DNA of 64,000 nucleotides, taken from NCBI GenBank assembly GCA_016719755.1, contig JADJYM010000016.1, forward strand, positions 496,001 to 560,000, in the 5' to 3' direction. Each line of letters opens with the position of its first letter. The stretch's first letter is position 1. Under the pieces are notes generated by a model, which saw nothing but the letters and a program-made list of their open reading frames with translations, ran no database searches and was not told the DNA's origin. Below are positions 1 to 15,940 of the stretch, in pieces. Made by a program: the position numbers and the translations under genes. Origin of the DNA: Novosphingobium sp. GTDB lineage: Bacteria > Pseudomonadota > Alphaproteobacteria > Sphingomonadales > Sphingomonadaceae.

Positions 1-227
1 GACAGGCCTTCGCGCGGGGTCAGGCAGTGCCAGAACAGGGCGGCCAGCTCGGTCAGCCGCAGCTGGCCCGCCGCCGCGCGTTCGACCAGCGCGAACAGGG
101 GGCCAAGCTCTTCCTCTGCGGCGACCAGCGCGGCGAAGCTGGGGCGCAGGACCCGCGCTTCGCCCGCGATGACCAGCGATGCCTCGCCCCGGTGGGGATT
201 GGCGACTTGCGGGTTGGCGCCGCTCAC
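1..227 (-). CDS. GTA gp10-like protein (Phage_TAC_11 family), partial
   Basis: The first 75 or so codons are present and the gene runs off the left edge. It starts at a GTG that overlaps the stop of the upstream tail-protein gene (GTGA). The N-terminus carries the ANPHRGEA block, followed by an IAGEARVLRPSF-type stretch and an acidic EEELG helix. These are hallmarks of the gene transfer agent gp10 family, a small tail-assembly-chaperone-like protein encoded directly after the major tail protein. The order and overlap with the tail gene support the call. What lies beyond the edge (tape measure, baseplate genes) cannot be seen. Confidence 0.82.
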   Translation of the reverse strand, partial: MSGANPQVANPHRGEASLVIAGEARVLRPSFAALVAAEEELGPLFALVERAAAGQLRLTELAALFWHCLTPREGL

Positions 228-646
228 GCCGCGGCCACCGGGGTGACCGGGCCGGAGCTTTCCAGCTGCAGGGTGTAGTTGCGCTCGCCGTTGAAATCGC
301 CCGAATAGTCGAGCTTCTGGACCAGGAAGCTGCCGCGCAGCTTTTCGCCGTCCTCGAAGCTCAGTTCATAGGCGTCGAGCGTGCCGTTCATCGCATTCGC
401 GCGCAGCTGGGCTTCGGCGGCGCTGCCCAGGAAGATTCCCGCAGCTGTAACCGAGACCGAGCGCACCCCGGCGCCCGAAAGCAGCTCGCGCCAACCGGCG
501 CTGTCCTTGCTGGTGACGACCACGCTGTCGCCGGCAATCGACATCTGGGTGGTGCGAAGGCCGGCGACGGTCTGGTAGACCGGCGGTTCGGCGCCGTTGG
601 TGATCTTGAGCAGGAAGGCGCTGCCTTTCTGTGCGGTCATGGTCAT
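224..646 (-). CDS. GTA/phage major tail protein (TP901-1 family, gp9)
   Basis: A 140-residue protein beginning MTMTAQKGSAFLLKI. It has the family layout: an early FLLKI strand, the VAGLRTTQMSI segment, a middle WRELLSGAGVRSVSVTAAG region, and a C-terminal FLVQKLDYSGDFNGE strand pair. Proteins of this type polymerise into the tail tube of siphovirus-like particles and of Rhodobacter-type gene transfer agents. It sits between the DUF3168 gene and gp10, exactly as in known GTA clusters. The reading frame is intact. The start ATG follows a GGAGC-like ribosome-binding sequence. Confidence 0.88.
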   Translation of the reverse strand: MTMTAQKGSAFLLKITNGAEPPVYQTVAGLRTTQMSIAGDSVVVTSKDSAGWRELLSGAGVRSVSVTAAGIFLGSAAEAQLRANAMNGTLDAYELSFEDGEKLRGSFLVQKLDYSGDFNGERNYTLQLESSGPVTPVAAA

Positions 647-664
647 GCTCCTTGTTGGAAGGGA

Positions 665-1057
665 TCAGTCCGCCATCAGGCGGAAGCGGTATTCGATCAG
701 GATCGCGCGGGTGTTGGCCGCGCGCTGTTCGGCGCGGGCGCGCAGGAACTGCGTGTTCACCACGCGGAAGCCGGCCTGTGCGGCGGGCAGGGCGGCAATC
801 CGCGCCTCGATGGCCGAGGTGAGCAGGGCGGCGGTGTCGGGCCGGTCGCCACGGCAATGCAGTTCCAGCGCGATCCGCACCTCGCGGCCCGCCCGGTCCT
901 TGACCGACCAGTCGGCGCTGGCGCTGGCGGCCACCGCCAGCCAGGGGAGCGCGGTGCGAGAAGGCGCTTCCTCGACAATCGCGTTAAGCTGGCCGGACAG
1001 CGCCGGATCGGCGGCCAGCCAGGCCAGCAGCGCGGCGCGCAGGGCAATTTCCATCAT
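665..1057 (-). CDS. DUF3168 tail-completion protein (GTA gp8)
   Basis: A 130-residue protein (start MMEIALRAALLAWLAADP; a second in-frame ATG lies one codon later). It has the typical DUF3168 features: a helical N-terminus for a base-reactivity domain, the LPWLAVAAS segment, a central ELHCRGDRPDTAALL region, and an IEYRFRL strand at the C-terminus. In the GTA gene order this is gp8, thought to act in tail completion or head-tail joining. It starts 2 bases after the preceding small gene, whose stop region AGGATAG supplies the ribosome-binding site, so the two are likely translationally coupled. Confidence 0.82.
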   Translation of the reverse strand: MMEIALRAALLAWLAADPALSGQLNAIVEEAPSRTALPWLAVAASASADWSVKDRAGREVRIALELHCRGDRPDTAALLTSAIEARIAALPAAQAGFRVVNTQFLRARAEQRAANTRAILIEYRFRLMAD

Positions 1058-1059
1058 GC

Positions 1060-1224
1060 CTATCCTTTGCTGAACAGCGGCCAGAGCAGCGCCGCGCGGC
1101 GCCAGCGTCGGGCGGGATCGCGGCGTTCCATCCGCAGGGTTTCGGCCCGCGCCGCGCCAAGCCGGGCGGCCTGCGCCTGCAGCCGGGTTAGCAACGCGGC
1201 GAAATCGGCGGCGGGATCGCTCAT
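1060..1224 (-). CDS. Small protein in the gp7 position of the GTA cluster
   Basis: A 54-residue frame starting MSDPAADFAALLTRL, overlapping the upstream connector gene by ATGA and followed directly by the DUF3168 gene. It is Ala/Arg-rich, with an amphipathic helix (residues 10-30), a basic RRDPARRWRR stretch and a hydrophobic LLWPLF end. The position corresponds to the head-tail adaptor gp7 of Rhodobacter GTA, but that protein is about twice as long and I see no convincing similarity. The tight overlaps on both sides are the main evidence that it is translated. Function is not assigned. Confidence 0.55.
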   Translation of the reverse strand: MSDPAADFAALLTRLQAQAARLGAARAETLRMERRDPARRWRRAALLWPLFSKG

Positions 1225-1769
1225 GCCAGCCGCAGCCGCCGCCACGGGCGCCACAGCGCCGCAACCGCCGCCGGGGGCAGGGCGGACTGGGCCTCGTCTT
1301 CGCGCAGGCGGTACTGGTGCGCGGCAATCCGCAGCACCCCGTGGCGCAGGGCATCGGGCAGGCCGGCCCAGTCTGCCGCGAGCCCGGCAGAGAAGCGCAC
1401 CGCCACGCGGCCCGCGCTGCCGGGGCGCAGCGTGCCGATCCGCCCGCCGCCATCGGCGTCGAGTTCGATCCGGTAGTCGCCCGCGGCCAGCGCAAAGCGC
1501 GGCCCTTCGGCGGGAATGCCCTGGACCGAAGTAATCGCCTGGACCGGGCGGGCGGAAAGCCGGGTCCATCCGGGCGTGGCGGGCAGCACTTCCTCGCAGA
1601 CCTGCTGCAGCGGCATGGTGCCGGTGAAATCCTCGCACAGGTCAGGCGCCATGCGCAGCAGCGCGGTCAGCTGGGCATCGTCGCCCGGAACGGTAATGCC
1701 CAGCCAGTCCTTGAGCTCGGCCAGCGCGGACGGCGCCAGCACGGCGGGGGTAATGATGGCCCGCTTCAT
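1221..1769 (-). CDS. Head-tail connector protein (gp6, phiE125 gp8 family)
   Basis: A 182-residue protein. The ATG start is preceded by a GGAGA Shine-Dalgarno. The N-terminus (LAELKDWLGI..DDAQLTALL) and the DLCEDFTG region match the head-tail connector / DNA-packaging fold of HK97-type phages and GTAs. The middle carries the RPVQAITSVQGIP segment and the C-terminus the ALRHGVLRIAAHQYRLRED helix. Such proteins form the ring below the portal through which DNA passes into the tail. The gene lies directly after the major capsid gene and overlaps the next small gene by ATGA. The frame is intact. Confidence 0.85.
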   Translation of the reverse strand: MKRAIITPAVLAPSALAELKDWLGITVPGDDAQLTALLRMAPDLCEDFTGTMPLQQVCEEVLPATPGWTRLSARPVQAITSVQGIPAEGPRFALAAGDYRIELDADGGGRIGTLRPGSAGRVAVRFSAGLAADWAGLPDALRHGVLRIAAHQYRLREDEAQSALPPAAVAALWRPWRRLRLA

Positions 1770-1867
1770 GGCGGTCTCCGTGTCTGGGGATGGGAAAGGG
1801 TGCGCCCGCGCCGAAGGGGAGGGGGGCGGCGCGGGCGCGGGGTGCGGCGCCCGGGGGGGCACCGCTG

Positions 1868-1896
1868 GCGGGCGGACTCTAGGAGAATCCGCCCGC
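1868..1896 (-). terminator. Intercistronic hairpin after the capsid gene
   Basis: A perfect 9-bp inverted repeat (GCGGGCGGA / TCCGCCCGC) with an 11-nt loop begins 8 bases after the capsid stop codon on the minus strand. No T-run follows, so it is not a classical intrinsic terminator. It could act as a partial terminator or a 3' mRNA stabiliser that keeps capsid message in excess over downstream tail messages. That role is inference. Confidence 0.45.
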
Positions 1897-1903
1897 GTCA
1901 GGC

Positions 1904-3041
1904 TCAGGTCGAGATCTTCAGCAGCTTGATCGCATCACTATCCAGCACCTGCCCGCCGACGCGCTTGGTGGCGTAGAAGTTGACGAACGGCTTGTTGGTG
2001 AAGGGATCGCGCAGGATCGTGGTCGCCTTGCGTTCCGCGATCAGATAGCCGGCCTTGAAGTTGCCGAAAGCGATCGGGAACGTGCCCGCTGCCACGTCCG
2101 GCATATCCTCGGCCTCGATCACCGGATAGCCCAGCAGGCGCGCAGGCTGGCCGTCAAGGATGCCCGGCTGCCACAGGAAAGTGCCGTCCGCCGCCTTGAA
2201 CTTGCGCACGGTCGCCAGCGTCTTCGAATTCATCACGAAGACCGCGCCCTGGCGGTGCCCGGACTTCAGCGCATGGACAAGATCGATCAGCTTCAGTTCC
2301 GGCGAGGCATCGAAGGCCGAGGCATTACCGCTGGCGAGGAACTGCAGCGTGCCGAACGGACGGGTCGCGTCACTGGTCGCGGCGGTCGGCGCGGCCAAGG
2401 AAGCCCTGGGCTGGTTGGTGCCGGTGCCGCCCACGAAGGCGGCGCCTTCGGCGCGGGCAAACTCCATCGCGATCTCGCTTGCCAGCCAGGCTTCGATATC
2501 GAAGTCGGCATCGTCGAGCATGGCCTGGGTCGCCGCCGGATTGGCGTAGAGCTCGCCCATCGGCGGGGCGATCTCGTTGAACTTGGGCGTGGTGGTTTCC
2601 AGGCCGCGCGGCGACCTCGCTGACCCAGCCAGAGGCCGAACCGCCAGCGGTGACCAGTTTGCGATAGCCCGCGCTGCCGGTCTGGACCACCTGGGCGATG
2701 GCGCGGATCGGGCTGATGGTCTTCAGCTGCTGGGCGATCAGGGCGTCGATCTCACGCGGGACTGCAAAGCCGCCATCGGCGGCAACCGCGCCGCTGATCG
2801 ACTTGAGCTCGGCCTCGCGGCCGCGGCGCAGGTAGCCGTCGACGAAGCCCTTGAGTTCGGGACTGGCCGGGGCACCGCCGCCGATTGCCGGGCGGGCGGC
2901 GGCGCGGCTGACCCGGTCGAGCCGCGATTTCACTTCATCGACATCCGAACGCAGCGCGCCCAGCGCCTGCTCGGCCGCGTCCTGGCGGGCGACGAGATCG
3001 AACGAGGCGTCGAGTGCCTCTTCGGGAAGAGTATTGTCCAT
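1904..3041 (-). CDS. HK97-type major capsid protein (GTA gp5), apparent frameshift
   Basis: HK97-fold capsid protein, about 378 residues once one surplus base is ignored. The N-terminal part (MDNTLPEEALDASFDLVA, a helical delta domain, then DGGFAVPREIDALI and SGWVSEVAARP) is in one frame. The rest (MGELYANPAATQAMLDDADFDIE through NFYATKRVGGQVLD) is in the next. The break is an extra C on the plus strand at about 2599-2600; removing it restores the expected ETTTPKFNEIAPPMGELYA join. The ATG has a good AGGAAAGGG ribosome-binding site. In GTAs this protein forms the small head after cleavage by the upstream protease. Sequencing error seems likelier than a true mutation. Confidence 0.85.
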
Positions 3042-3064
3042 GGGGGTGCCCTTTCCTGTTGAAA

Positions 3065-3187
3065 TCCTCCCCGGTGCGGGGGGACCCCGCAGCATGGTGG
3101 AGGGGCCCTCGATCGGGCGTGGCGTTGGGGGGGGCGTCAGGCGGCGGGCCCCCCGAGCCCTGGGGCTGCCACCCCGTGCGGGAGGAA
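3065..3187. repeat. GC-rich imperfect inverted-repeat (REP-like) element
   Basis: A 120-bp stretch between the protease core and the capsid start. The arms are TCCTCCCCGGTGCGGGG and CCCCGTGCGGGAGGA, and the interior contains GTGGCAGCCCC and TGGTGGAGGGGCC words. It resembles dispersed intergenic palindromes that I associate with sphingomonad genomes. Here it sits inside the capsid operon and contains an 8-G run, a likely site of sequence error. Only one copy was noticed in the window. Confidence 0.5.
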
Positions 3188-3576
3188 TGCTGATCAGATG
3201 CACCCGCGCCGCGTGCTGCATCGGGCGGGTGACCAGGCTGATCTCGAACAGCTCGATGTCGGTCAGCTCGCGCCCGGCCGCATCGCGGGTGAAGCCGCGG
3301 GCGCGGTAGCCGAACGACAGGCCGGTCACCGCCCCGCGCCGCAGCGCCGCGCCCGCGCCGCCGTCCGGATTGTCGATCCGGGCGATGACCCTGAGGCCGC
3401 GCGCGTCTTCGGCCACGCTTTCGATCCAGCCGATCCGCTGGTCCGGCCGGTGCTGCCAGAACAGCGGCAGCGGCTCGGTGCGTTCGGCCAGGGTGCGCGC
3501 GAATGCGCCGGGACGGATCGTGTCGCGTCCGGCATCGCGGCGGCCGAACAGGGCGGCATAAGCCCGCCAGCCTCAC
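3137..3576 (-). CDS. HK97-family prohead protease (GTA gp4), frameshifted, 3' end unclear
   Basis: Processes the capsid delta domain during head maturation. It starts at a GTG overlapping the stop of the preceding gene (GTGA). After VRLAG the frame breaks: removing one base of the AA pair at 3560-3561 gives AGYAALFGRRDAGRDTIRPGAF, then LPLFWQHRPDQRIGWI, GAVTGLSFGYRARG and IELFEISLVTRPMQ. These are the family blocks, including the catalytic-region His after FWQ and the Ser of GLSFGY. The core ends near 3191. As written, this frame runs through the repeat element into the capsid gene without a stop. The end given here uses a nearby out-of-frame TGA and is uncertain. Confidence 0.72.
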
Positions 3577-3881
3577 TTCAGCAGCCCCGTCGCGCCCAGC
3601 CTCCAGGCCATGCCCATCAGCATTAGCGCCAGCGCTCTGCGTACGACCCAGGCGAGCACGGCCCTCCATGCGGCGGTCTTGGCATCGCGCCAGGCCTGAA
3701 GCAGTTCGCGCAGTTCGGACAGGTCGGACAGGGCGGCCTCGTCATCCAGCCCCATCCGGGCCAGCACGCGCTGGGCGCCCAGTTCGCTCGCTTCTTCAAC
3801 GATCGCGCGCAGCGTCACCAGATCGCCCCCGGCATCGGCGGCCTGGGCGATCAGGCGCGCCACCATGTCATCACGGTTCAT
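3573..3881 (-). CDS. DUF6127-like small protein in the GTA head operon
   Basis: A 102-residue protein starting MNRDDMVARLIAQAADAGGDL. It has an acidic helical region (TLRAIVEEASELGAQRVLARMGLDDEAA), a linker helix (LRELLQAWRDAKTAAWRA) and a hydrophobic C-terminus, VRRALALMLMGMAWRLG, that could be a membrane segment. Genes like this lie between portal and prohead protease in many sphingomonad GTA clusters; I recall the family as DUF6127. It overlaps the portal stop (ATGA) and the protease GTG start, so it is embedded in the operon. The molecular role is not known to me. Confidence 0.7.
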   Translation of the reverse strand: MNRDDMVARLIAQAADAGGDLVTLRAIVEEASELGAQRVLARMGLDDEAALSDLSELRELLQAWRDAKTAAWRAVLAWVVRRALALMLMGMAWRLGATGLLK

Positions 3882-5034
3882 GCTTTGTTCCTTGATTGGG
3901 CGGGCGGCAGGCCGATGAGGGCGCGCTTTTCCGCGTCGGTGAGGAAATCGGCGGCGGAAACCTGCGCCCACAGGCGCTCGCGGTCCTCGGCCAGCGCGGG
4001 CACCTGATCGAGATCGATGGCAAGCTTCGCGCCCGGGAACCAGGTCTCCAGCCCCTCGCCCAGGGCCGAGAGGATCTTCGCGGCGAGCGGCAGCAGGGTC
4101 AGCCGCCACAGCGCGCGGTTGGCCTCGCGGTAATTGGCATAGGTCGCGTCCCCCGGCAGGCCCAGCAGCATCGGCGGCACGCCGAAGGCCAGGGCAATGT
4201 CGCGCGCGGCGGCGGCCTTCAGCTCGGCAAAGTCCATGTCCGCCGGGGTCAGGCTGAGCGGCTGCCACTTCAGCCCGCCTTCCAGCAGCATCGGCCGTCC
4301 GGCGTTGAACTGGCCGGAATAGGCCGAGGCAAGTTCCGCCTTCAGCCGGTCGAACTGCTCCGCCGTCAGCCCCGCGCCGTCGCCCGGATCATAGACCAGT
4401 GCGCCCGATGGCCGCGCCGCGTTTTCCAGCAACAGCCGGTTCCACAGCCCCGCCGCGTTGTGGGTCGCCACCGCCTGGTCGGCGGCGGCAAGGCAGCCCG
4501 CGCCGTAGTGATCGTCGCCGGGGTGGAAATGGCGAATGTGGATCAGGTTCGGGCTAGCGTCCTGGTCCTCTGCCGGGATCGTCAGGCTACGTTCGCCGAC
4601 GCGGTAGGCATAGGCGCTGGGCCAGCCATCCTCGCCCGCAACCACGCTGACCCTCTCGGGGCGCAGCGCGAACAGCTCCACCGGCTGGCCCGCGCCGTCG
4701 CGGATGATCTGGACATAGGCATTGCCGTGCAGCAGCAGCTGGCTCGCCAGCGTTTCGAGCAGCGCCTGGCCCGCGCTGGTCGCGCCGACCAGCCGGGCAA
4801 GCACCGGATCGGTGGGCGCCAGCGGCGCGCCGCCGATCCCCTCGGCCACCAGCCGCACGGCACGCTGGGCGACCGGGTTGTCGACATAGGCGCGCTTGAC
4901 GGCTGAAGTGTACTCGAACGGCGCCCGCCCGCCCCCGCCGTCGGCGAAGAACCACGGCGACGAAAAGGACCGTGCCAGCGGCACGCGGCTGCCCCGCCCT
5001 TGAAGGCGGCGGCGATGGTCTGGAGGAAGGACAT
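3878..5034 (-). CDS. Phage/GTA portal protein (HK97 family, gp3)
   Basis: Forms the dodecameric ring through which DNA is packaged. From the GTG at 4984 a 368-residue frame is open: SSPWFFADGGGG, DNPVAQRAVRLVAEGIGGAPL, LLLHGNAYVQIIRD, NLIHIRHFHPGDDHYG and DIALAFGVPPMLLGL are all portal-family blocks. An ATG at 5034 with an AAAGG ribosome-binding site opens MSFLQTIAAAFKGG, the N-terminus typical of GTA portals, but in another frame. One missing base near 4985 would join the two, so the full span is given. If GTG 4984 is the true start the protein is only slightly shorter. Confidence 0.86.
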
Positions 5035-5086
5035 GGCAAGCCTTTCATCAAATGCCCGCCCGCGAATGCGGTAGGCGCGGTTGGTT

Positions 5087-6415
5087 TCATCCCAGCCAGA
5101 CGCGCGGCGCGCCCTGCCGCCCGAGCATCAGCTCGGTCAGCGCCCAGACCAGCGCGTCGGCGCGGTCGGGGCTGCGGCCGGGGCCGTGGTAGCCGCCGCC
5201 GGCCAGCAGTCCGCACAGCTGGTCTTCCAGCGCCGGGAACTGCCCGGCGTGGCGCACGCGGCCCGCTTCGTAGAGCGCGGCGACCGGTTCGGCCCGCGCC
5301 GCCTTGCCTTGCCGCGCGTGAACCAGCCGCACCGGCAGGGCGAGGTCGGCGGCGCGCAGCACGCTTTCGACCATCGCGCCGCCCTGGTTGGCTTCGGCGA
5401 CCACGCGGTCGGCCTGCCAGCCTTGCGCGGTGCGGGCGACGGCGCGCGCCCAGCGTTCGGGGCTCGCCTTTTCCACGCTGGCATCGGCCAGCACCCGTGC
5501 GGTGCCATCCCCGGCCAGCGCGCAGACCACGATCCCGCAGGCATCGCCCGCCGAGGAAGCGGGCGGATCGACGCCCACCACCACCACCCGGGCCCAGCCG
5601 TCAGTGCCGGAAGCTGCCGCATCGCGGCAGGCTTCCAGCAGGGCGCGGGTCCACAGCGCACCTTCGATGTCGGTGATCAGTTCGCCGTCCAGTTCCTGCC
5701 GCCCCAGCGCCGAGCGGCCATATTCGCGCCGAACCGCGGCGATGAAGCGCGGCGGCAGGTTGGCCTTGTTGTCGAACGTCCGCCCGCGCGTCACCGCCAC
5801 TTGCGGATGATCGAGCAGCCGTTTGAGCAGGGGCACCGCGCGCGGGGTGGTGGTTGCCACCGCCTGCGCCCGCTCTCCCAGCCGCAGGCCGAGCAGCAGG
5901 TTGTCCCAGGCGCTTTGCGCTCTGGCACTGTCCCACTTGGCAATCTCGTCGCACCAGGCATGGCTGTGCTGGGGCCGCGCAGGCTTTCCGGCTCACCGGC
6001 TGAATAGAGCGTCGCCTGCGCGCCATTGGGCCAGCGCAGTTGGCGCTTCGACGGTTCGAAGCGCGGCCTCTTCCCGCGCGGGGCGAGCGCCAGCAGTCCG
6101 CTTTCGCCTTCCACCATCACGCTGCGCGCCTCGACCAGCGAAGCGCCGACCAGCGCGATCCGGGCGCCGGGATCGTTCTGGGCAATCGCGCGGACCCATT
6201 CCGCCCCGGCGCGGGTCTTGCCAAACCCGCGCCCAGCCATGATCAGCCAGGCCAGCCAGTCGCCGGGCGGGGGCAACTGGCCGCGATGCGCCCACAGCTG
6301 CCAGTGGTGGCGCAGCGAGCTGCTGGCGCTGGTCCATGCCCGCCAGCAGGGCGGCGCGTTCATGCCTTGGCAGGCCGAGCAGGATCTCCGCCCGGCTGTC
6401 GCCCGCCTTACTCAT
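5087..6415 (-). CDS. Large terminase subunit, ATPase/nuclease (GTA gp2), frameshifted
   Basis: Packages DNA into heads. The ATP-binding part (GDWLAWLIMAGRGFGKTRAGAEW, a Walker A with GRGFGKT, then the LVEARSVMVEGESGLL region) is in one frame. The remainder (ATTTPRAVPLLKRLLDHP, RQELDGEL, and the RNase H-like nuclease segment VVVVGVDPPASS with Asp near its start) is in another. The break is in the GGGG run at 5971-5974, where one base appears missing; repairing it gives LRGPQHSHAWCDEIAKW. A second break near the N-terminus (around 6319-6325) separates MSKAGDSRAEILLGL from LRHHWQLWAHRGQLPP. The ATG overlaps the stop of the upstream gene (ATGAGTAA). Confidence 0.83.
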
Positions 6416-6940
6416 CCGGTCTGTCCCGGCCGTCGCTTTCGCCCAGCTGCGCCGCATTGGCGGCGGCGCGTTCGCGCATCGAATCGATCATCGCGTCAAT
6501 CGAATCGAGCACTTCCTGCTCGCTGCGATCGTCCTGCGCGGCGCGTTCGTGCGCCACCGACTGGCGGTGCTGGGCAAGCAGGCGGATCGCGTTGGCGACG
6601 TCCATCTTCCCGCCCCCATCGGGGTCGCGCAGATAGCCGAGCAGTTCCATTTCCAGGTTCTCGTAGCCCTCGCACAGCGCCTGACGCCATTCGGCGGCAA
6701 AGCCGGGATGCTCGCGCCGCACGCGGTAGACCCGGCTGACCGAGATCCCGGCGCGTTCCGCCGAGCGGGTGACGTTCGATGTTTCGACCAGCGCGGCCAG
6801 GAAATAGGTCCGCCAGTGCTTGTTCAGCCGGTCCTCGCCCTCGCTTTGCGCAGGCGCGGCGGCAGCTTGGTCTGTTTGAGGCGCGCCTTGCCACGCGCTG
6901 CGGACGCAGCGGCGGCAGGCGCGGTTTGCGCCTTGCTCAT
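6408..6940 (-). CDS. Small terminase-like DNA-binding protein (GTA gp1), frameshifted
   Basis: First gene of the GTA-like operon. The C-terminal 140 residues include RLNKHWRTYFLAALVETSN, then a helix-turn-helix (TRSAERAGISVSRVYRVRRE) and an EGYENLEMELLGYLRD helix, as in small terminase or phage-type DNA-recognition proteins. The N-terminus, MSKAQTAPAAAASAARGKARLK, is in another frame. One missing G in the CCC run at 6838-6840 (minus-strand GGG) would join them, giving about 177 residues. Assignment as gp1/TerS rests on the HTH and position before the large terminase. It is divergent from the YqaA gene. Confidence 0.62.
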
Positions 6941-7052
6941 CCAGGGGTTCCTGATTGCCGGAAAGGGGAGGGGCGAAGCGCCGTCGGGCTTCGAATCGGT
7001 TGATCGCGATGTTCCGTATTTGTGCCATAAGAGCGTTACGGTGTCAACATAA

Positions 7053-7069
7053 ATAACCCATATGGTTAT
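7053..7069. promoter_or_regulatory. Palindrome upstream of GTA operon, CtrA-like half-sites
   Basis: An inverted repeat ATAACC-CATAT-GGTTAT lies in the 203-bp divergent gap between the GTA small terminase gene and the YqaA gene. Each arm resembles the CtrA half-site TTAACC with one change. The word CATATGGTTA is shared exactly with the ctrA promoter region in this window. CtrA control of GTA expression is known in Rhodobacterales. Binding here is inference. Confidence 0.42.
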
Positions 7070-7143
7070 ATAAGGCGGATACTTGCCGCCCTGCCGCTGC
7101 GTGGCTAAGCAGGCGCGGAACTGCCGGAAAACAGGGACAAACG

Positions 7144-7787
7144 ATGCTGCGCCGCCTTTACGAATGGACCATGGCCAAGGCATCACACCGCCACGCCGAA
7201 TGGTGGCTGGCACTGTTCGCTTTCATGGAGGCGAGCTTTTTCCCGATCCCGCCGCACCCCTGCTGGGGGATCATGTGCCTGGCCGAACCGAAAAAGGCGG
7301 TGCGCTTTGCCGCGGTTGCCACGCTGGCATCGGTGGCGGGCGGGCTGCTCGGTTATGCGATCGGCTACTTCCTCTATGACACCCTGGGCACCCAGATCCT
7401 CGCGGCGCTGGGGCTGAGCCAGAGCTTCCCGCGCGCAGCCTGCTACCTGCGCGAATACGGGGCCGAGATCATCATGATCAAGGGCGCCACCCCGATCCCC
7501 TTCAAGCTGCTGACGATCACCGCCGGGTTCATCGCCATGCCGGTCTGGATCTTCATTGGCGCATCGATTGTCAGCCGCTCGATCAGCTTCATGATCGTGG
7601 GCGTGCTGTTCCGCCTGTTCGGTGCGCCGATCAAGGCGTTCATCGACAAGTATCTGGGCCTTGCCACCGCGATCTTCGCCGTGGTGGTGGTTGGCGGCTT
7701 CATCGCCGCCGCGATGCTTTCGGGCGGGTCCGGCAGGAAACCAGCGCGGTGTGCGAAGCTGCCGCAGCAGCGGCGCAGGTCCGGTGA
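7144..7787 (+). CDS. YqaA/DedA-family (VTT domain) inner-membrane protein, frameshift near 3' end
   Basis: Integral membrane protein of the SNARE-associated/VTT superfamily, about 214 residues. It carries the family blocks FMEASFFPIPPH, EYGAEIIMIKGATPIPFKLLTITAGFI and FGAPIKAFIDKYLGL, with hydrophobic segments around residues 20-40, 55-75, 115-140 and 180-200. The start ATG has an AGGGAC ribosome-binding site. Two irregularities look like homopolymer errors. HPCWGIM would read HPLLGIM with one C more and one G less at about 7257-7270. One missing base near 7730-7735 would end the gene as SAVCEAAAAAAQVR with a stop overlapping the next GTG. The substrate is unknown; DedA-type proteins have been linked to lipid flipping. 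Confidence 0.8.
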
Positions 7788-8428
7788 GCGCCGCCCCCCG
7801 CATCCACCTCCACCACTGCCGCGACGCGCGTTCGTTTCGCGTGCTGTGGGCGCTGGAGGAACTGGGCCTGCCTTACGAGCTGACCATGATGCCATTTCCG
7901 CCGCGCGTGTTCGTCGAAGGCTACCGCGATGTGAACCCGCTGGGCACCGTGCCCGCTTGCTTCATCGACGGCCAGCTGATGACCGAAAGCGCGGCGATCC
8001 CGCACGTGCTGGCCACGAAATTCGGACCCAGCCCGCTGGCGGTCGCGCCGGACGAGCCGGACTTTCCCGCCTACATGAACTTCCTGATGATGGGCGAGGC
8101 GACGCTGACTTTCCCGCAGACGATCCACCTGCGCTACACCCGGCTGGAGCCGCCCGAGCGCCGCGTGGCCCAGGCGGCCGAGGATTATGCCCAGTGGTTC
8201 GGATCGCGCCTGCGCAATGCCGAAGCGATGATGCAGGGCGACTACGCCGCCGCCGGACGTTTCACCATGGCTGACATTTCGGTGGGCTATGCGGTGATGC
8301 TGGCCCGCCAGATCGGACTGGAAGAGCAGCTGACCCCCGGGATGCAGGCCTATTTCGACCGCCTCAGCCAGCGCGAAGGCTTCCGCCGCGCGCAGGCGGC
8401 GCAGGGGCCGGGCGGGCTGGGGCTGTAA
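7784..8428 (+). CDS. Glutathione S-transferase family protein
   Basis: A 214-residue cytosolic GST. The N-terminal thioredoxin-like domain has HHCRDARSFRVLWALEELGLPYEL, the VNPLGTVPACFIDGQLMTESAAI cis-Pro and Glu-Ser glutathione-binding region, and the C-terminal helical domain has RFTMADISVGYAVMLA (the N-capping motif with Asp). It uses a GTG start overlapping the YqaA stop (GTGA), suggesting co-transcription. It would conjugate or isomerise electrophiles with glutathione; the specific substrate cannot be told from sequence. Confidence 0.85.
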   Translation: MSAAPRIHLHHCRDARSFRVLWALEELGLPYELTMMPFPPRVFVEGYRDVNPLGTVPACFIDGQLMTESAAIPHVLATKFGPSPLAVAPDEPDFPAYMNFLMMGEATLTFPQTIHLRYTRLEPPERRVAQAAEDYAQWFGSRLRNAEAMMQGDYAAAGRFTMADISVGYAVMLARQIGLEEQLTPGMQAYFDRLSQREGFRRAQAAQGPGGLGL

Positions 8429-8437
8429 TCCTGCCGG

Positions 8438-10087
8438 TTACCTGACCAGCGGCGAATCGCGGTCCAGCGCCGTGCGGGCCGCCGCCAGCACCTGCATGGC
8501 CACCGGATCGAGCTGGCGCAGCCGCAGCGATGCTTCGGCCTCGCGCTGGGCACCGGCGGCATCGCCTGCCGCCAACAGCGCCGCCGCCAGATCGCGGCGC
8601 ACCGGATACCAGAACGCGGGCGGATCGGAAAAGTCGGAGAACTCCTCGGTCTCCTCGATCTCGGCGGCCTTGCGGAACAGGTCGGCGGCATCTTTCCAGC
8701 GCGCTTCGGCCATGGCGATCCGCCCTTCCAGCACGGCGCGGGTGATGCCCAGCATCTGTTCGGCGGCCACCGCATCCCGTTCGGGCTTGCCCTGGACCAG
8801 GGTGAGCGGGATCGCTGCCGCTTCGGCCCGCGCCCCGGTCAGGTCGCCCGCCCAGACCAGGCTTTCGCCCCGGGCATAGTGCCAGGCCGCCTTGAGGTAG
8901 CCCAGCTTGGGTTCAGGCAGGGCGCCAACGCTGGCGGGATCGAACCGGGCGAGCGCGAAATAGCCCGAGGCGGCCAGCAGCTGGCTCCACGGCCTGGCCT
9001 TGTCATCGGTGGCGGACCGTTCGACCAGCGGGCGGGCAAGATCCAGCGCGATCCGCGAATCCCCGGCCATCAGCGCGCCGCCCAGTCCATAGATCACGTT
9101 GTGGGCATGATAGGGCAGATCCCAGACCCCCTTGGGATCGGGCAGGCCCAGCGCGCGGGCATTGGCCTTGCCCAGCTCCACCGCCGCGCGGTTGGTCCGG
9201 GCCGCATCCTGATAGCGCCCCACCCAGTACCAGGTGTGGCTGGGCATGTGGACCAGGTGGCTGGCGCGCGGGGCAAGGCCAGCCAGGCGATCGGCATAGG
9301 CTTCGGCAAGTTCGGGTTTGCCGATCACTTCGGTGGCGTGGATATAGAAATGGATCGCGGGGGTATGGTCGGGCGCGCGCTTCAGCACCTTTTCCAGCAG
9401 CACCACGGCGGCCTGCATCGCGGCATGATCATAATCGCTGCCATCGTCGGCAAAGGCCGAAACCATCAGCGCGTCGGCGGCGAGGCCCAGAATCTCGTTG
9501 TCATCGGGAAAGCGCGCCGCGGCGGCCTGCATGGCGGCGGCGTAGCGGTCATCGGCGCGGGCTGTATCCTTTCCCGGCGCATAGCGCAGCACCAGCGCAT
9601 CGGTCAGCGCGCGTTCCTTGGCGGTACCGGAACGCCGCACACCGGCCTGCGCCTCGCGGGCCAGCACCAGCAGCGGTCCGCGCTCCTTGGCATCCTTGCC
9701 ATAGTTGATCGTCGGCCCGTCGGTCAGCGCCAGTCCCCACTTGCACATCGCGCAGGCGGGATCGAGCCGGACCGCCTCGGTCATGGCCGCCACCGCCGCG
9801 CGGTGGGCGAAGGCGGCGTGGAGCTCAAGCCCGTTGGCGAAGAACTTCTGCGCTTCGGCATTGCCGGTGCTGACCGCAAAGCCGCCGTTGCCATAACCGG
9901 GCAGCAGCGTCGCGGTGCGGGGAACCATGGCATCGTCGTGGCGGTGCTGCTGGTCCTGCGCTTCGGCTGCGGGGGCGGCGGGATGCTGCGCGTGGTCCTG
10001 GCCGTGAAGGTCCTGCGCCAGCGCGCCCGTCGGCGCGCCCAGCGCCAGCAAAAGGCCGCCCAGCCAGCCCGCGCCATGGTGTCGCAT
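8438..10087 (-). CDS. Exported TPR-repeat protein with His-rich N-terminus
   Basis: About 549 residues. The ATG has a strong GGGGGAGAG ribosome-binding site and opens a signal peptide (MRHHGAGWLGGLLLALGAPTGALAQ, cleavage near residue 25). Residues 28-51 hold about seven His in an Asp/Gln/His-rich stretch. A CxxC pair (C112/C115) lies in DPACAMCKWGLAL, and tetratricopeptide-like helix pairs fill the rest (for example HTPAIHFYIHATEVIGKPE and HLVHMPSHTWYWVGRYQDA, itself rich in conserved His). Periplasmic location is likely. The His-rich tail and CxxC suggest metal or heme contact, which is inference. It follows the SDR gene on the same strand. Confidence 0.72.
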   Translation of the reverse strand: MRHHGAGWLGGLLLALGAPTGALAQDLHGQDHAQHPAAPAAEAQDQQHRHDDAMVPRTATLLPGYGNGGFAVSTGNAEAQKFFANGLELHAAFAHRAAVAAMTEAVRLDPACAMCKWGLALTDGPTINYGKDAKERGPLLVLAREAQAGVRRSGTAKERALTDALVLRYAPGKDTARADDRYAAAMQAAAARFPDDNEILGLAADALMVSAFADDGSDYDHAAMQAAVVLLEKVLKRAPDHTPAIHFYIHATEVIGKPELAEAYADRLAGLAPRASHLVHMPSHTWYWVGRYQDAARTNRAAVELGKANARALGLPDPKGVWDLPYHAHNVIYGLGGALMAGDSRIALDLARPLVERSATDDKARPWSQLLAASGYFALARFDPASVGALPEPKLGYLKAAWHYARGESLVWAGDLTGARAEAAAIPLTLVQGKPERDAVAAEQMLGITRAVLEGRIAMAEARWKDAADLFRKAAEIEETEEFSDFSDPPAFWYPVRRDLAAALLAAGDAAGAQREAEASLRLRQLDPVAMQVLAAARTALDRDSPLVR

Positions 10088-10154
10088 CGCACTCTCCCCC
10101 AGATGATCGGGCAAAGCTTGCAGGTTTCAGGGCGCTTGTCACCTGCGGCGGCGA

Positions 10155-10921
10155 TCAGGGGGCGGTGGGGGGCACCGTATAGTTCAGCCCCAGCCGTCCG
10201 CCATCGGGGTAGATCGTCTGCCCGGTGACATAGGAGCTTTCGCCGCAGGCCAGGAACACGGCAATCGCCGCGACTTCCTCCGGCTCGCCGCAGCGGCCCA
10301 GCGGCGTGCGGGAAAGGATGCGCTCCTCCGCCGCGCGGTCGGACATGATGGTGCGCAGCATCTCGGTCAGGATCGATCCCGGGCCGATCGCGTTGACCCG
10401 GATCCCGCGCGGGCGAGCGCCAGCGCGGTGACATTGGTCAGCTGCTTCATCGCGCCCTTGCTGATCGCGTAGGGAATTTGGTCAGGGATCGCCAGCACGG
10501 CGTTGACCGAGCTCATGTTCACCACGGCGGCGCCTTCGCCCATCAGCCGCGCCGCGCCCTGCGTGGCCCACAGCGCGGACTTGAGGTTGGTGGCGAAGAC
10601 CCGGTCGAAGTCCTCCTCGGTCAGGGCGTCGAGGCTGGCGGCGTGGGTGATCCCGGCATTGTTGACCAGCACGTCCAGCCCGCCCCAGCGCGCGGCGGCG
10701 CGTTCCATCAGGCGCTCGACCTCGGCCTTGCGGGACACGTCGCAGGTGAAGGCTTCGCCGCCCAGTTCCGCCGCCGTCGCGGACAGGGCTGCGGCATCGA
10801 TGTCGGCCAGCAGCAGCTGCGCGCCCTCGGCGGCGAAGGCGGTGGCGATCGCCTTGCCGATCCCGCGCGCCGCGCCGGTGATGATCGCGCGCTTGCCCGC
10901 CAGGCGCTGCTGGGCAATCAT
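10155..10921 (-). CDS. Short-chain dehydrogenase/reductase (SDR), apparent frameshift
   Basis: A classical SDR of about 255 residues. It has the nucleotide-binding IITGAARGIGKAIA glycine motif, LVNNAGIT, catalytic Ser in VVNMSSVNAV, and the Tyr-Lys pair in PYAISKGAMKQL. The frame breaks after TALALA: one missing base in the GGG run at 10411-10413 would give ALAPRGIRVNAIGPG and continue into the intact C-terminus (LGRCGEPEEVAAIAVFLACGESSYVTGQTI). It lies 7 bases downstream of the lipoprotein gene. The substrate is unknown. Proximity to serine palmitoyltransferase makes a sphingoid-base reductase role conceivable but unproven. Confidence 0.8.
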
Positions 10922-10928
10922 CGCCCGG

Positions 10929-11816
10929 TCAGTACGCCGAGAGGTAGTTCTGCAACTGCCCCATCCGGTTCTGGGCTTCGTTGGCCTGGCAATTGAGCGT
11001 GGCCACGGCCTGACCGGTCGGGTCGGTCGCGCTTTGCAGGCCGTGGACCTTGCAGGACGCATCCTTGCGCTTGATCCAGACGCGCTGTTCGGCCAGCAGC
11101 TGTTGGCGCACTTCGGGCGAGAGGCCCTGCCACACGGCCGTCAGCGCCTCGTCCGCCGTCTTGCGGGCCAGGGTCGCCTGTTCGATCGAGGCGCGGTTGG
11201 CGGCGTTGATCGCCTCCTCTTCCTGCTTGGCGGCCAGCGCCGCGTTCTCGGCCTCCATCCGCTGCCGGTTTTCCAGGTTGGAGCGCAGCAGCGATGCGGC
11301 CAGCACTTCTCCGAAGACGCCCAGCTTGGCATCGGCGTCCTCGAATTCGGCAACGATCTTGGTGCCATCGTCGGTCGGCTGGACGCTGTAGTCGAGATCG
11401 CCGGTCAGGTAATCGGCGCCCTTGTCTACCCCGGCGGCATCGGCGGCATCGTCAAGGCCGGGAAGTCCGGCGATCTCGCGGGCCTTGGCGGCATCGTCGA
11501 ACACGTTCGTGCCGAACACGATCTTGAGGTTGCCGGTGCAGAACCGCTTGGTGCTGTTGGGATCTTCCTTGGTGGTCCGGATATTCTCGATCACCAGCTT
11601 GAGATCGGCAATCGCCGCACGGACTTTCGATCCGCCCACCGCCAGCTTGCCGTCGCTTCCCTTTGCATTGGCAAGGACGATCTTCTGAAGGCTGTCGCGG
11701 ATGGCGATTTCCAGCGCGGCCTTGGCATCCTCGTCGGAACAGGTGGTGTTGGCCTTGCCGCAGGCACCCAGCGCCAGCGCCGAAACGATGGCCAAGATCA
11801 GCCGGAACCTTTTCAC
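10929..11816 (-). CDS. Lipoprotein with C-terminal LprI/DUF1311-like domain
   Basis: A 295-residue secreted lipoprotein. The N-terminus MKRFRLILAIVSALALGAC is a lipobox with Cys19. The middle (TTCSDEDAKAALEIAIRDSL and a LDYSVQPTDDG region) has no family I recognise. Residues 205-250 form an alpha-helical, Ala/Glu-rich stretch, followed by LSPEVRQQLLAEQRVWIKRKDASC and CQANEAQNRMGQLQ, which resembles the DUF1311/LprI domain with its paired Cys. Homologues are periplasmic and some inhibit lysozyme. It is encoded between serine palmitoyltransferase and an SDR. Confidence 0.68.
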   Translation of the reverse strand: MKRFRLILAIVSALALGACGKANTTCSDEDAKAALEIAIRDSLQKIVLANAKGSDGKLAVGGSKVRAAIADLKLVIENIRTTKEDPNSTKRFCTGNLKIVFGTNVFDDAAKAREIAGLPGLDDAADAAGVDKGADYLTGDLDYSVQPTDDGTKIVAEFEDADAKLGVFGEVLAASLLRSNLENRQRMEAENAALAAKQEEEAINAANRASIEQATLARKTADEALTAVWQGLSPEVRQQLLAEQRVWIKRKDASCKVHGLQSATDPTGQAVATLNCQANEAQNRMGQLQNYLSAY

Positions 11817-11895
11817 ATCTGCCCCCTGCGTTCAAGCGCTTCAGGGCTTTAGTGCATCAGCGGACCTGCATGCGTCAACACGGCTTGCCGCGCGC

Positions 11896-13094
11896 TCAGA
11901 TGATCCCGACAGTCTTCCCGGCGCGTTCGAACATGCCGATGATGGTCTGGACCTGCTCGGCGCTGTGTTCCGCGCAAAGCGAGCAGCGCAGCAGGGTCAT
12001 GCCCGCAGGCGTTGCGGGCGGGCGGGCGAGGTTGACGTAAAGCCCTTCGTGCAGCAGCGCTTCCCACATTGCCGCGCCGCGCTCCAGATCGGGCATGATC
12101 ACCGCGATGATCGCCGACTGCGGTTCTTCGGTGCCAAGCTGGAAGCCCTTGTCCCGCAGGCCCTTGTGCAGGGTCTTGGAATTCTCCCACAAATGGGCGC
12201 GCTTGTTGCCCGCGTGCATCAGCTTGCGGATCGAGGTGCAGGCGGTGGCGACCACTGATGGCGGCAGGCTGGCGGTGAAGACATGGGGGCGGCAGACCAG
12301 CCGCATGATCTCGAACTTGGGATGGTTCGATACGCAGAAGCCGCCGACCGTGCCAACCGACTTGGAAAAGGTGCCGATCACGAAGTCGACATCGTCCAGC
12401 ACGCCCTGGTCCTCGGCCACGCCGCGCCCGTTGGGGCCGATGAAGCCCATCGAATGCGCCTCGTCCACCAGCACCATCGCGCCGTTTTCCTTGGCGACCC
12501 GGATCATCTCCTTCAGCGGGGCGATGTCGCCCAGCATCGAATAGACGCCTTCCAGCACGACCAGCTTGCCCGCGCCTTCGGGAATGCGCTTCAGGCGCTT
12601 TTCCATCGCCACGATGTCATTGTGCTTGAAGGGCACGACCTCGGCATCGCCCATCTTGCAGCCATCCCAGATCGAGGCGTGGCTGTCGATGTCGAGGACG
12701 ATGTAATCGCCCTTTCCGGCAATCGTCGAAATGATTCCGAGGTTGGCCTGGTAGCCGGTCGAGAACACCATGGCGTGATCCATGGCGTAGAATTCCTTGA
12801 GCGCTTCCTCGACGGCGCGGTGCCCGGCATAGGTGCCGTTGAGCACGCGGCTGCCGGTGGTGCCCGAGCCGAAATCGTCAAGCGCCTGTTTTCCGGCCTC
12901 GATCACGTCGGGATCGAAGGTCATCCCCATGTAGTTGTAGGTGCCCAGCAGGATCGTCTCGCGCCCGTTGCACACCGCGACCGTGGGCGAGAGAACCTTT
13001 CCATCACCAGGCTGAACGGGTCTTCCACCCCGGAAGCCAGCAGGTTGGCGCGCATCTCGATCAGCGGATCGAACTTGGAGAACAGGTCGGTCAT
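11896..13094 (-). CDS. spt: Serine palmitoyltransferase, apparent frameshift
   Basis: A PLP-dependent alpha-oxoamine synthase joining L-serine and a fatty acyl thioester to give 3-ketosphinganine, the first step of sphingolipid synthesis. Blocks seen are ETILLGTYNYMGMTFDPDV, FGSGTTGSRVLNGTY, DIDSHASIWDGC, VDEAHSMGFIGPNGRG, the PLP-lysine GTFSKSVGTVGGF and RPPATPAGMTLLRCSLCAEH. Close recall of the Sphingomonas enzyme separates it from 5-aminolevulinate synthase. The first 33 residues (MTDLFSKFDPLIEMRANLL) are out of frame: one missing base in the TTT run at 12998-13000 restores VMEKVLSPTVAV. About 399 residues. The ACP gene is 9 bases upstream. Confidence 0.9.
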
Positions 13095-14727: not shown

Positions 14728-15189
14728 ATGAGCATCGAAGCGAAACTGGCCGAACTCGGCCTGACCCTGCCGGAAGCAGCCGCACCGGTTGCCGCCTATG
14801 TGCCGGTCGTGGTTGCAGGCGGACTTGCGCACGTGTCGGGACAGGTCTCGATCGTCGGCGGACAGCTGCTCAAGGGGCGGCTGGGCGAGGATCTCACCCT
14901 CGAACAGGGGGTAGAGGGTGCGCAGGCGTGCGCGCTGATGATCCTGGCGCAGCTCAAGGCAGCGCTCGGTTCGCTCGACCGGGTCGAGCGGGTGGTGAAG
15001 CTTGGCGCCTTCGTCAACAGCACGGCGGCTTTCACCGACCAGCCCAAGGTCGCCAACGGGGCCTCCGAACTGATGGTCGCGGTATTCGGCGAGGCTGGCA
15101 AGCACGCCCGCAGCGCGGTCGGCGTGCCCAGTCTCCCGCTCGGCGTCGCGGTCGAAGTGGATGCCATCGTTGCCGTTCGCGCTGATTGA
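14728..15189 (+). CDS. RidA family (YjgF/YER057c) protein
   Basis: A 153-residue protein of the atypical, longer RidA branch: AYVPVVVAGGLAHVSGQVSIVGGQLLKG, LKAALGSLDRVERVVKLGAFVNST, and GEAGKHARSAVGVPSLPLGVAVEVDAI. Canonical RidA hydrolyses reactive enamine/imine intermediates formed by PLP enzymes, using an Arg in the xRxxVGVxxLP region; here it is ARSAVGVPSLP. Good AGGAG ribosome-binding site. The 3' end overlaps the following GDPD gene by 29 bases. Confidence 0.88.
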   Translation: MSIEAKLAELGLTLPEAAAPVAAYVPVVVAGGLAHVSGQVSIVGGQLLKGRLGEDLTLEQGVEGAQACALMILAQLKAALGSLDRVERVVKLGAFVNSTAAFTDQPKVANGASELMVAVFGEAGKHARSAVGVPSLPLGVAVEVDAIVAVRAD

Positions 15190-15940
15190 TCGCTGGCGGG
15201 CACCCGCGCCCCGGCCTGAAAAAGTCGCCTGGCTGGGTGAGTGCGACTATGCCCACCGGGGGCTGCATGGCGCCGGAGTGCCTGAAAACTCGCCAGCTGC
15301 TTTCGCCGGGGCCATCGCGCGGGGCATGGGGATCGAATGCGATGTGCGCCGCTCTCTCGACGGGCAGGCGATGGTGTTTCACGACGCAACGCTGGAACGG
15401 ATGACGGGTGAGACCGGATCTGTCCGCCAGCGCAGTGCGGAGGAACTGGGCCGGATCGTGCTTGCGGGTGGCAGTGACACGATCCCCACGCTGCGCCAGG
15501 TTCTGGACCAGATCGCCGGACAGGTTCCGGTGCTGATCGAGATCAAGTCGCAGCAGGGATCGCGCGGGCGGGTATCGGCGCTGTGCCTGGCGGTGCGCCG
15601 GGTCCTGGAAGGCTATCAGGGGCTTCATGCGGTGATGAGCTTCGATCCGCGCGTGGTGCGCTGGTTTGCGGACCATTCCCCGCTGACGGTACGCGGCCTG
15701 GTCGTCACCGAAGAGGATGACAAGGCGCTGCCCGGCATGGTCCGGCGCCGCCTGGCACTGTGGCACGCGCGGCCCGATTTCCTTGCCTACGACGTGCGCG
15801 ACCTGCCCAGCCGCTTTGCCGCTGCCCAGCGTCGGCGCGGCCTGCCGGTGACGACCTGGACGGTCAAGAGCGCCGAACACCGCGAGCGCGCGAGCGCCCA
15901 TGCCGATGCGCCGATTGCGGAGGGCGCGGGCGTCCAGTGA
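15161..15940 (+). CDS. Glycerophosphodiester phosphodiesterase family protein
   Basis: A 259-residue TIM-barrel phosphodiesterase. The catalytic pair is seen in YAHRGLHGAGVPENS (HRG) and IECDVRRSLDGQAMVFHDATLERMTG (E-x-D and FHD), with VPVLIEIKSQQG as the metal-binding Glu strand. It has no signal peptide, so it is probably cytoplasmic; the family hydrolyses glycerophosphodiesters to glycerol-3-phosphate. The C-terminus (TTWTVKSAEHRERASAHAD) is typical. It overlaps the gene on each side. Confidence 0.87.
   Translation: MPSLPFALIDRWRAPAPRPEKVAWLGECDYAHRGLHGAGVPENSPAAFAGAIARGMGIECDVRRSLDGQAMVFHDATLERMTGETGSVRQRSAEELGRIVLAGGSDTIPTLRQVLDQIAGQVPVLIEIKSQQGSRGRVSALCLAVRRVLEGYQGLHAVMSFDPRVVRWFADHSPLTVRGLVVTEEDDKALPGMVRRRLALWHARPDFLAYDVRDLPSRFAAAQRRRGLPVTTWTVKSAEHRERASAHADAPIAEGAGVQ

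Follow-up and report, generated by a model that had tools for sequence, protein, structure and literature searches.

Do phage-type head and tail genes on a bacterial chromosome belong to a prophage or to a gene transfer agent (GTA), and, if to the latter, how is the tail tip built and is the cluster still maintained? These questions are raised by one end of a 64,000-nucleotide stretch of a Novosphingobium sp. genome (contig C16, positions 496001-560000, hereafter the window; assembly GCA_016719755.1, 3.7 Mb in 16 contigs). Taken together, it is quite probable that the window carries the promoter-proximal half of a chromosomal cluster like the GTA of Rhodobacter capsulatus (RcGTA), with a phage N4-type module in gp12, a gp15 without the GTA_TIM domain, and frame shifts that are assembly errors. 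Its assignment to the domesticated, chromosomally inherited RcGTA-like elements of Sphingomonadales, a known kind of element and not an ordinary prophage, is well supported by sequence comparison.

A probable GTA cluster at a fixed chromosomal locus

Eleven head and tail genes occupy positions 1-6940 of the window on the minus strand, follow an RcGTA-like order and match the expected families. Such a cluster is far beyond chance; for instance, the portal profile match reaches 2.3e-74. The initial annotation had read these genes from the sequence as an RcGTA-type run, and their strand, content and order stand on profile matches and on the frames read, but not all of them are intact, since several frames are shifted. 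To the left of the window, the contig (stretch L001, which has separate coordinates) continues the cluster: extending it as that annotation had advised brings in the gp11-gp15 genes and then ordinary chromosomal genes. Beyond a DUF2793 gene, these encode an OmpA-type protein, superoxide dismutase, an MFS transporter, QueC, Hsp33, ornithine carbamoyltransferase and an aminotransferase. The flanks had been described as chromosomal and free of an integrase, and none of the 13 flank proteins searched (7 left and 6 right) is of the mobile-element kind. Pfam searches of these proteins did not find integrase, replication or immunity genes beside the cluster (one right-flank protein had no match), and ARAGORN found no tRNA in the window or in L001. 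No attachment-site (att)-like repeat was found when 2.0 kb of the left flank was compared with 2.6 kb of the right; the longest direct match is 11 bases (mean of 50 random pairs, 12.4). An integrase and att sites to the left, which the annotation had thought would speak for a prophage, were thus not seen among the 7 left-flank proteins or as a repeat.

Loci of relatives were gathered by the portal protein, and 80 of 126 were kept. Their titles are mostly Novosphingobium, Erythrobacter and kin, some giving only Pseudomonadota, Proteobacteria or Alphaproteobacteria. The closest portals are on a contig of a Novosphingobium metagenome-assembled genome (93% identity) and in the isolate N. kunmingense (L011; 82%), and a portal match occurs in 49 of 61 related genomes, a count that includes the genome studied here and some weak matches. 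The same chromosomal neighbours flank the cluster in most relatives (64 of the 80 loci have at least 9 kb upstream). None of the 765 phage records that match the portal reaches 60% identity, and the best among the matches listed has 49%. Trees of six GTA proteins and of two flank proteins, made from the 46 of 80 loci having all eight genes, have 16 of 43 splits in common (shuffled labels give a mean of 0.16 and a maximum of 2); 71% of 20,000 quartets are concordant, and the distances are correlated (Mantel r 0.70, reached by 0 of 2000 permutations). Inheritance is largely vertical at a fixed locus, with partial agreement of the trees. The initial annotation had looked to a vertical rather than a phage-like phylogeny; the fixed locus bears this out, and the trees do so only in part.

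These data make a remnant or functional prophage a very improbable alternative. The genes are phage-derived, and in IMG/VR 13-15 kb contigs that hold clusters with this gp12 are filed as viral, but a prophage fits poorly with flanks in which no integrase, tRNA or att-like repeat was found, with a chromosomal place that is constant across genera, with a tree that partly tracks the flank genes, and with a best listed phage portal so low in identity. The cluster is read as a GTA because the contig to the left holds gp11-gp15 and then chromosomal genes, because the neighbours recur, because its tree partly follows the flank, and because phage portals are distant; the proposal of a GTA rather than a prophage is upheld on the same grounds. 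Pairwise ratios of nonsynonymous to synonymous substitution rates (dN/dS) against the relative L003 are 0.08-0.36 in the eleven GTA genes measured, the protease being left out. The cluster appears to be kept under purifying selection, except for the terminase small subunit (TerS) against distant relatives.

A tail tip with an N4-type module

The gp12 protein has 778 aa and carries NCTSP_N (PF23844, 1.2e-97), the NCTSP TIM barrel (PF23845, 8.9e-165) and the DUF2460 distal tail protein (PF09343, 1.7e-74). Its N-terminal 560 aa match two proteins of PDB 9lc0, Gp64 (residues 274-558, 1.9e-40) and the non-contractile tail sheath (residues 6-90 and 214-313, 2.6e-14), an entry that we take to be phage N4, going by its protein names. 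The phi92 protein gp142 has 33% identity over 97% of a 562-aa gp12 query. All 46 gp12 proteins that were aligned, out of 64 available, have the glutamates of YELL, QIGEPWWW and QxEDYDW without exception, and N4 Gp64 has them too; the GEP motif presumably resembles the acid/base motif of clan GH-A glycosidases. The gp15 protein has 742 aa and is without GTA_TIM: it is aligned at profile position 214 (residue 219) and goes on with Phage-tail_3 from residue 246. Thus, the match to Rhodobacter-type GTAs that had been proposed holds for the gene order but not for the tail tip, with its gp12 fusion and its gp15 devoid of GTA_TIM. A kinship between the NCTSP barrel and GTA_TIM was also considered; the profile comparison gives a probability of 0.2%, that is, no similarity, and a moved domain is not claimed.

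The fusion recurs among relatives. In the 110 loci searched (L003-L112), 69 open reading frames (ORFs) of the gp12 type were found in 68 loci, all of them portal-gathered and none among L083-L112. Both modules are present in 64 of the 69 ORFs and the first module only in five: two of these reach the end of the sequence at hand, two stop within 140 bases, and the one in L012 is a split gene. Among 432 phage records that match gp12, one only, an unannotated 5.4-kb contig, covers at least 80% of it in one place. The N4-type barrel (PF23845) is found in 99 of 196 Sphingomonadales genomes; GTA_TIM (PF13547), taken as the mark of a Rhodobacter-type tail tip with a full megatron, was found in 0 of 196 genomes, in a same-sized sample of the order that includes the genome studied here. 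A class-wide sample of Alphaproteobacteria gives the barrel in 4 of 289 genomes (three of the window's family, the present one included), GTA_TIM in 29 of 289, and both together in 0. Eleven genomes from outside the window's family have both a portal match and the barrel. In 9 of them the two share a strand, with the barrel 7 to 14 kb downstream; in the other 2, barrel and portal are on different contigs.

We consider it evenly balanced whether the tip was rebuilt early and once in the GTAs of Sphingomonadales. On that account, an N4-type module with a glycosidase-like TIM barrel would have been fused to the distal tail ring, GTA_TIM being absent or lost. The sugar receptor or the glycan-cutting step would then differ from that of Rhodobacter-type GTAs, and so would the range of recipients.

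Two side observations concern the distribution of these proteins. In the order, 32 of 196 genomes have the NfrA_C domain of NfrA, the receptor partner of N4. Of these 32, 28 belong to families other than the window's, and 26 of those 28 carry the NCTSP barrel, an association confounded with kinship. Many of the IMG/VR 'viral' contigs of 13-15 kb resemble GTA clusters, with gp12 relatives in at least 598 candidate stretches (598 of the 600 listed). Of the IMG/VR loci kept (L160-L239, n = 80), 49 also have the portal and 78 have gp13, and one contig has the gp12 of N. kunmingense at 100%.

Broken reading frames and a second copy of the cluster

With the proteins of relatives as tblastn queries, more than one frame is needed in the C16 copy for the terminase large subunit (TerL), the protease, the capsid and the tape measure, and comparison with contig C2 and with L003 adds shifts in TerS and at the portal start. 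The portal body, DUF6127, connector, DUF3168, tail tube, gp10, gp12, gp13, gp14 and gp15 are open in this copy. C2 is a contig of 18,847 bases with a second portal at 99% identity, and is homologous to C16 nearly end to end, flank genes included; the homology is interrupted over about 1 kb, where one LprI-domain gene lies. The two contigs have diverged by about 1.5% in substitutions. Across the eleven gene ranges, the substitutions fall on codon positions 1:2:3 as 24:22:108, next to 24 gap openings, and this third-position bias indicates real haplotype divergence. In C2, TerL and the protease are open, the capsid is broken elsewhere, and the DUF3168 gene, tail tube, gp10, tape measure and gp12 are also broken. 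In the flank, the aminotransferase has an open frame in C2 but a broken one in C16. The C2 copies were used for the domain tests of TerL, protease and capsid; the TerS and portal inputs to the family searches contained some N-terminal residues from a shifted frame. Because the insertions and deletions break different genes in C16 and in C2, and because a flank gene is shifted too, the frame shifts look like residual consensus errors of the assembly, made where the haplotypes C16 and C2 competed for reads. Programmed frame shifting, in TerL or in the capsid, was also weighed and was dropped, since the shifts hit different genes in the two contigs and a flank gene as well.

The shifts were also scanned for by codon usage, with a filter that was picked after two other settings had been seen. 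The first setting was dropped because of its self-trained isolate controls: 14 loci (290 kb) yielded 70 calls, ascribed to opposite-strand shadow frames. The second filter was dropped as too strict, with 1 call overall and known shifts overlooked. The scan as used is insensitive, overlooking the shifts in TerS and the protease and the first of those in TerL. In the window it gave 3 calls, which fall at 2609-12998 and all within the part covered by C2; seven other 20-kb stretches of C16 (140 kb) also gave 3, all in one stretch (L134). Contig starts and whole short contigs, 14 stretches with 263 kb in all, gave 48 calls (17 in one stretch, none in four); C2 has 7, and 20 isolate loci (417 kb) have 4. 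Two other short contigs were compared in the same assembly: C14 mostly repeats the beginning of C15 and the end of C13, and C9 partly repeats C12.

If the shifts in TerS, TerL, portal start, protease, capsid and tape measure were real, the cluster would be decaying here and the lineage would no longer make particles. This is unlikely: a conserved chromosomal neighbour is also shifted (near 13000), C2 has TerL and protease open yet other genes broken, the scan calls gather at contig starts and in short contigs (48, against 3 elsewhere in C16 and 4 in the isolate loci), and C14 largely repeats two other contigs, although several shifts do fall within GTA genes of the C16 copy and relatives with partial clusters exist. 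Two paralogous GTA clusters within one cell, C16 and C2, are quite unlikely. The second portal at 99%, the substitutions biased to third codon positions and the absence from C2 of the 0.9-kb LprI-domain gene could all be explained by paralogy, but so long a homology (18.8 kb, nearly throughout and with the flanks) could not be so easily, C14 overlaps larger contigs likewise (and C9 in part), GTA clusters are reported to be single-copy (PMC6821227), and a mixture of two strains is simpler. The LprI-domain gene, which sits between two neighbours in C16, is, in its own right, a gene-content difference between the two haplotypes.

Points that count against the proposed reading

Several observations pull away from a maintained, vertically inherited GTA with an N4-type tip. 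No portal match was found in 12 of the 61 related genomes, and weak ones among the 49 may be prophage portals. Of the splits with support of at least 0.9, those in common are 13 of 31 of the GTA tree and 9 of 24 of the flank tree; so small an overlap leaves room for exchange, or for a flank tree that is weak for being built on two genes. With L011 and L006, which are more distant relatives, dN/dS is 0.18-0.43 for most genes, and for TerS, whose N-terminus is partly in a shifted frame, it is 0.76 and 1.00. Partial clusters, in which several head or tail genes were not found, lie beside the same neighbours in four loci (L044, L050, L051 and L056), that of L050 running into a contig end. As assembled, the C16 copy could not make TerL, protease or capsid, and it may, though improbably, be a truly decaying copy from one of two strains. 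At the tail tip, gp15 scores 360 bits against a cut-off of 800 for the NCBIfam family GTA_megatron (NF048004). Nine portal-bearing genomes of the order that had not come up as barrel carriers (G040, G041, G043, G044, G046, G050, G052, G055 and G057) were searched individually and have the barrel in 0 of 9 and GTA_TIM in 0 of 9; the portal match of G043 is weak, and these genomes may represent a third tail-tip type, or some of their portals may come from prophages. Finally, NfrA was not found (as NfrA_C) in the genome studied here, and NfrA as the receptor of the gp12 module is not supported for the window's family.

Features of the cluster and its flanks

The features are collected in Table 1. 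The flank aminotransferase is, on our reading, presumably of the serine-palmitoyltransferase-like kind.

Table 1. Genes of the GTA-like cluster and neighbouring genes. Positions are those of the window unless L001 is named; loci counted for the neighbours are those with at least 9 kb upstream.
Feature	Position	Strand	Evidence
DUF2793	L001 8659-9111	-	
gp15	L001 9129-11357	-	
gp14, NlpC/P60 peptidase	L001 about 11341-11733	-	
gp13	L001 11730-12554	-	
gp12	L001 12551-14887	-	
Tape measure, frame shifted	L001 about 14909-15690	-	
gp10, remainder	L001 to 15889	-	
gp10 (GTA-gp10, Phage_TAC_11), 5' part	1..227, continues left to L001:15889	-	PF11836 3.3e-21 for whole gene; open 112-aa frame
Tail tube protein (gp9)	224..646	-	PF06199 1.3e-40, TIGR02126
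DUF3168 / tail completion protein (gp8; Tail_completion_gp17)	665..1054	-	PF11367 1.4e-14
Tiny ORF, 54 aa, at the place of gp7	1060..1224	-	Frame read; no Pfam match
Head-tail connector (gp6)	1221..1769	-	TIGR02215 2.9e-23, phrog_442
Major capsid protein (gp5), HK97, shifted near 2600	1904..3041	-	L003, L005 and L011 capsids align in two frames (tblastn); C2 copy PF05065 2.4e-40 over open part
HK97 prohead protease (gp4), shifted near 3560, 3' end disturbed near 3190-3045	3045..3573	-	C2 copy PF04586 1.3e-24, TIGR01543
Small DUF6127 protein, between portal and protease	3573..3884	-	PF19622 3.5e-26
HK97 portal protein (gp3), open from 4984, with the 5' end in another frame near 4995	3878..5035	-	PF04860 2.3e-74, TIGR01537
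TerL (gp2), shifted near 6320 and 5970	5087..6457	-	C2 copy open: PF03237, PF17289 (Terminase_6N/6C)
TerS, shifted near 6850	6408..6940	-	phrog_4044 3.6e-09; compared with L003 start
DedA-type gene, conserved chromosomal neighbour	7144..7800	+	C2 copy VTT domain PF09335 1.1e-08; homologue in 60/64 loci
LprI-domain gene (PF07007), about 0.9 kb	10929-11816		Present in C16, absent from C2
Class-I/II aminotransferase, conserved neighbour, shifted near 13000	11896..13020	-	C2 copy PF00155 1.1e-51; homologue in 52/64 loci

An annotated cluster of Sphingomonas parapaucimobilis (L159, NZ_CP155752.1) has the same order and likewise ends with DUF2793 followed by OmpA. It looks intact, and the 395-kb record that holds it is that of a plasmid, with genes for dihydroorotase and nicotinate phosphoribosyltransferase as well. 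Just upstream of it are a toprim gene and a site-specific integrase, the latter about 1.8 kb from the terminase.

Significance and comparison with known systems

Outside Rhodobacter, little is known of how GTAs select the cells that receive their DNA. A tail-tip module that is carried by about half of the sampled genomes of the order, and in which a relative of the N4 receptor-binding protein would replace the Rhodobacter-type domain, offers a single testable protein. Moreover, assembly frame shifts can make a maintained GTA appear dead, and GTA-like clusters are filed as viral contigs in the public collection IMG/VR. By analogy with RcGTA, the cluster would be transcribed as one unit, its products would assemble a small head and a short non-contractile tail, and the particles would package fragments of host DNA. 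Six gp12 modules may ring the tail tip, if the single distal-tail hexamer of RcGTA is a guide, and might bind the cell surface or cut glycan before DNA is delivered.

Clusters of this kind are known from the order. In 207 Sphingomonadales genomes, 132 RcGTA-like clusters have been reported (Kogay et al., 2019; PMC6821227), at least six clustered genes classified as GTA being the criterion of that study; the 'ancient prophage' of Viswanathan et al. (2017) is cited there as such an element. Homologues of gafA are reported in 196 of 208 GTA genomes, and of four orders compared, the sphingomonads are reported to have the GTA genes most strongly selected for translation (PMC9765227). The present cluster is one of the Sphingomonadales RcGTA-like clusters, and the accessible part of the 2019 paper mentions neither the gp12 fusion nor the missing GTA_TIM. 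Our literature search found no description of the fusion together with the loss of GTA_TIM; the 2017 paper on the element, which may describe it, lies outside the coverage of that search. The cluster is of a known kind, with a gp12 fusion and a missing GTA_TIM that were not found described in the literature searched.

The cluster resembles RcGTA in the terminase-to-gp15 order and families, in its single direction, in its chromosomal place and in its DUF2793 protein, of a type called a tail fibre (PMC10883770). The distal tail protein of RcGTA forms a hexamer and contacts the hub and the megatron through its N-terminus, the peripheral domain of the megatron comprises residues 230-744, and sugar binding by the distal tail protein, hub, megatron and fibre has been proposed to aid passage through the capsule (PMC7296036). 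We infer that GTA_TIM is placed in this peripheral domain. In contrast to RcGTA, the sphingomonad gp12 has an extra N-terminal module of 560 aa, and its gp15 of 742 aa is without GTA_TIM. With N4 Gp64, the N4 gp65 tail sheath and phi92 gp142, this module shares a homologous N-domain and TIM barrel. N4 gp65 is described as binding the receptor NfrA, the transporter of a surface glycan (PMC12892993; PMC8669472). Unlike these phage proteins, the module of the sphingomonad GTA is fused to the distal tail protein.

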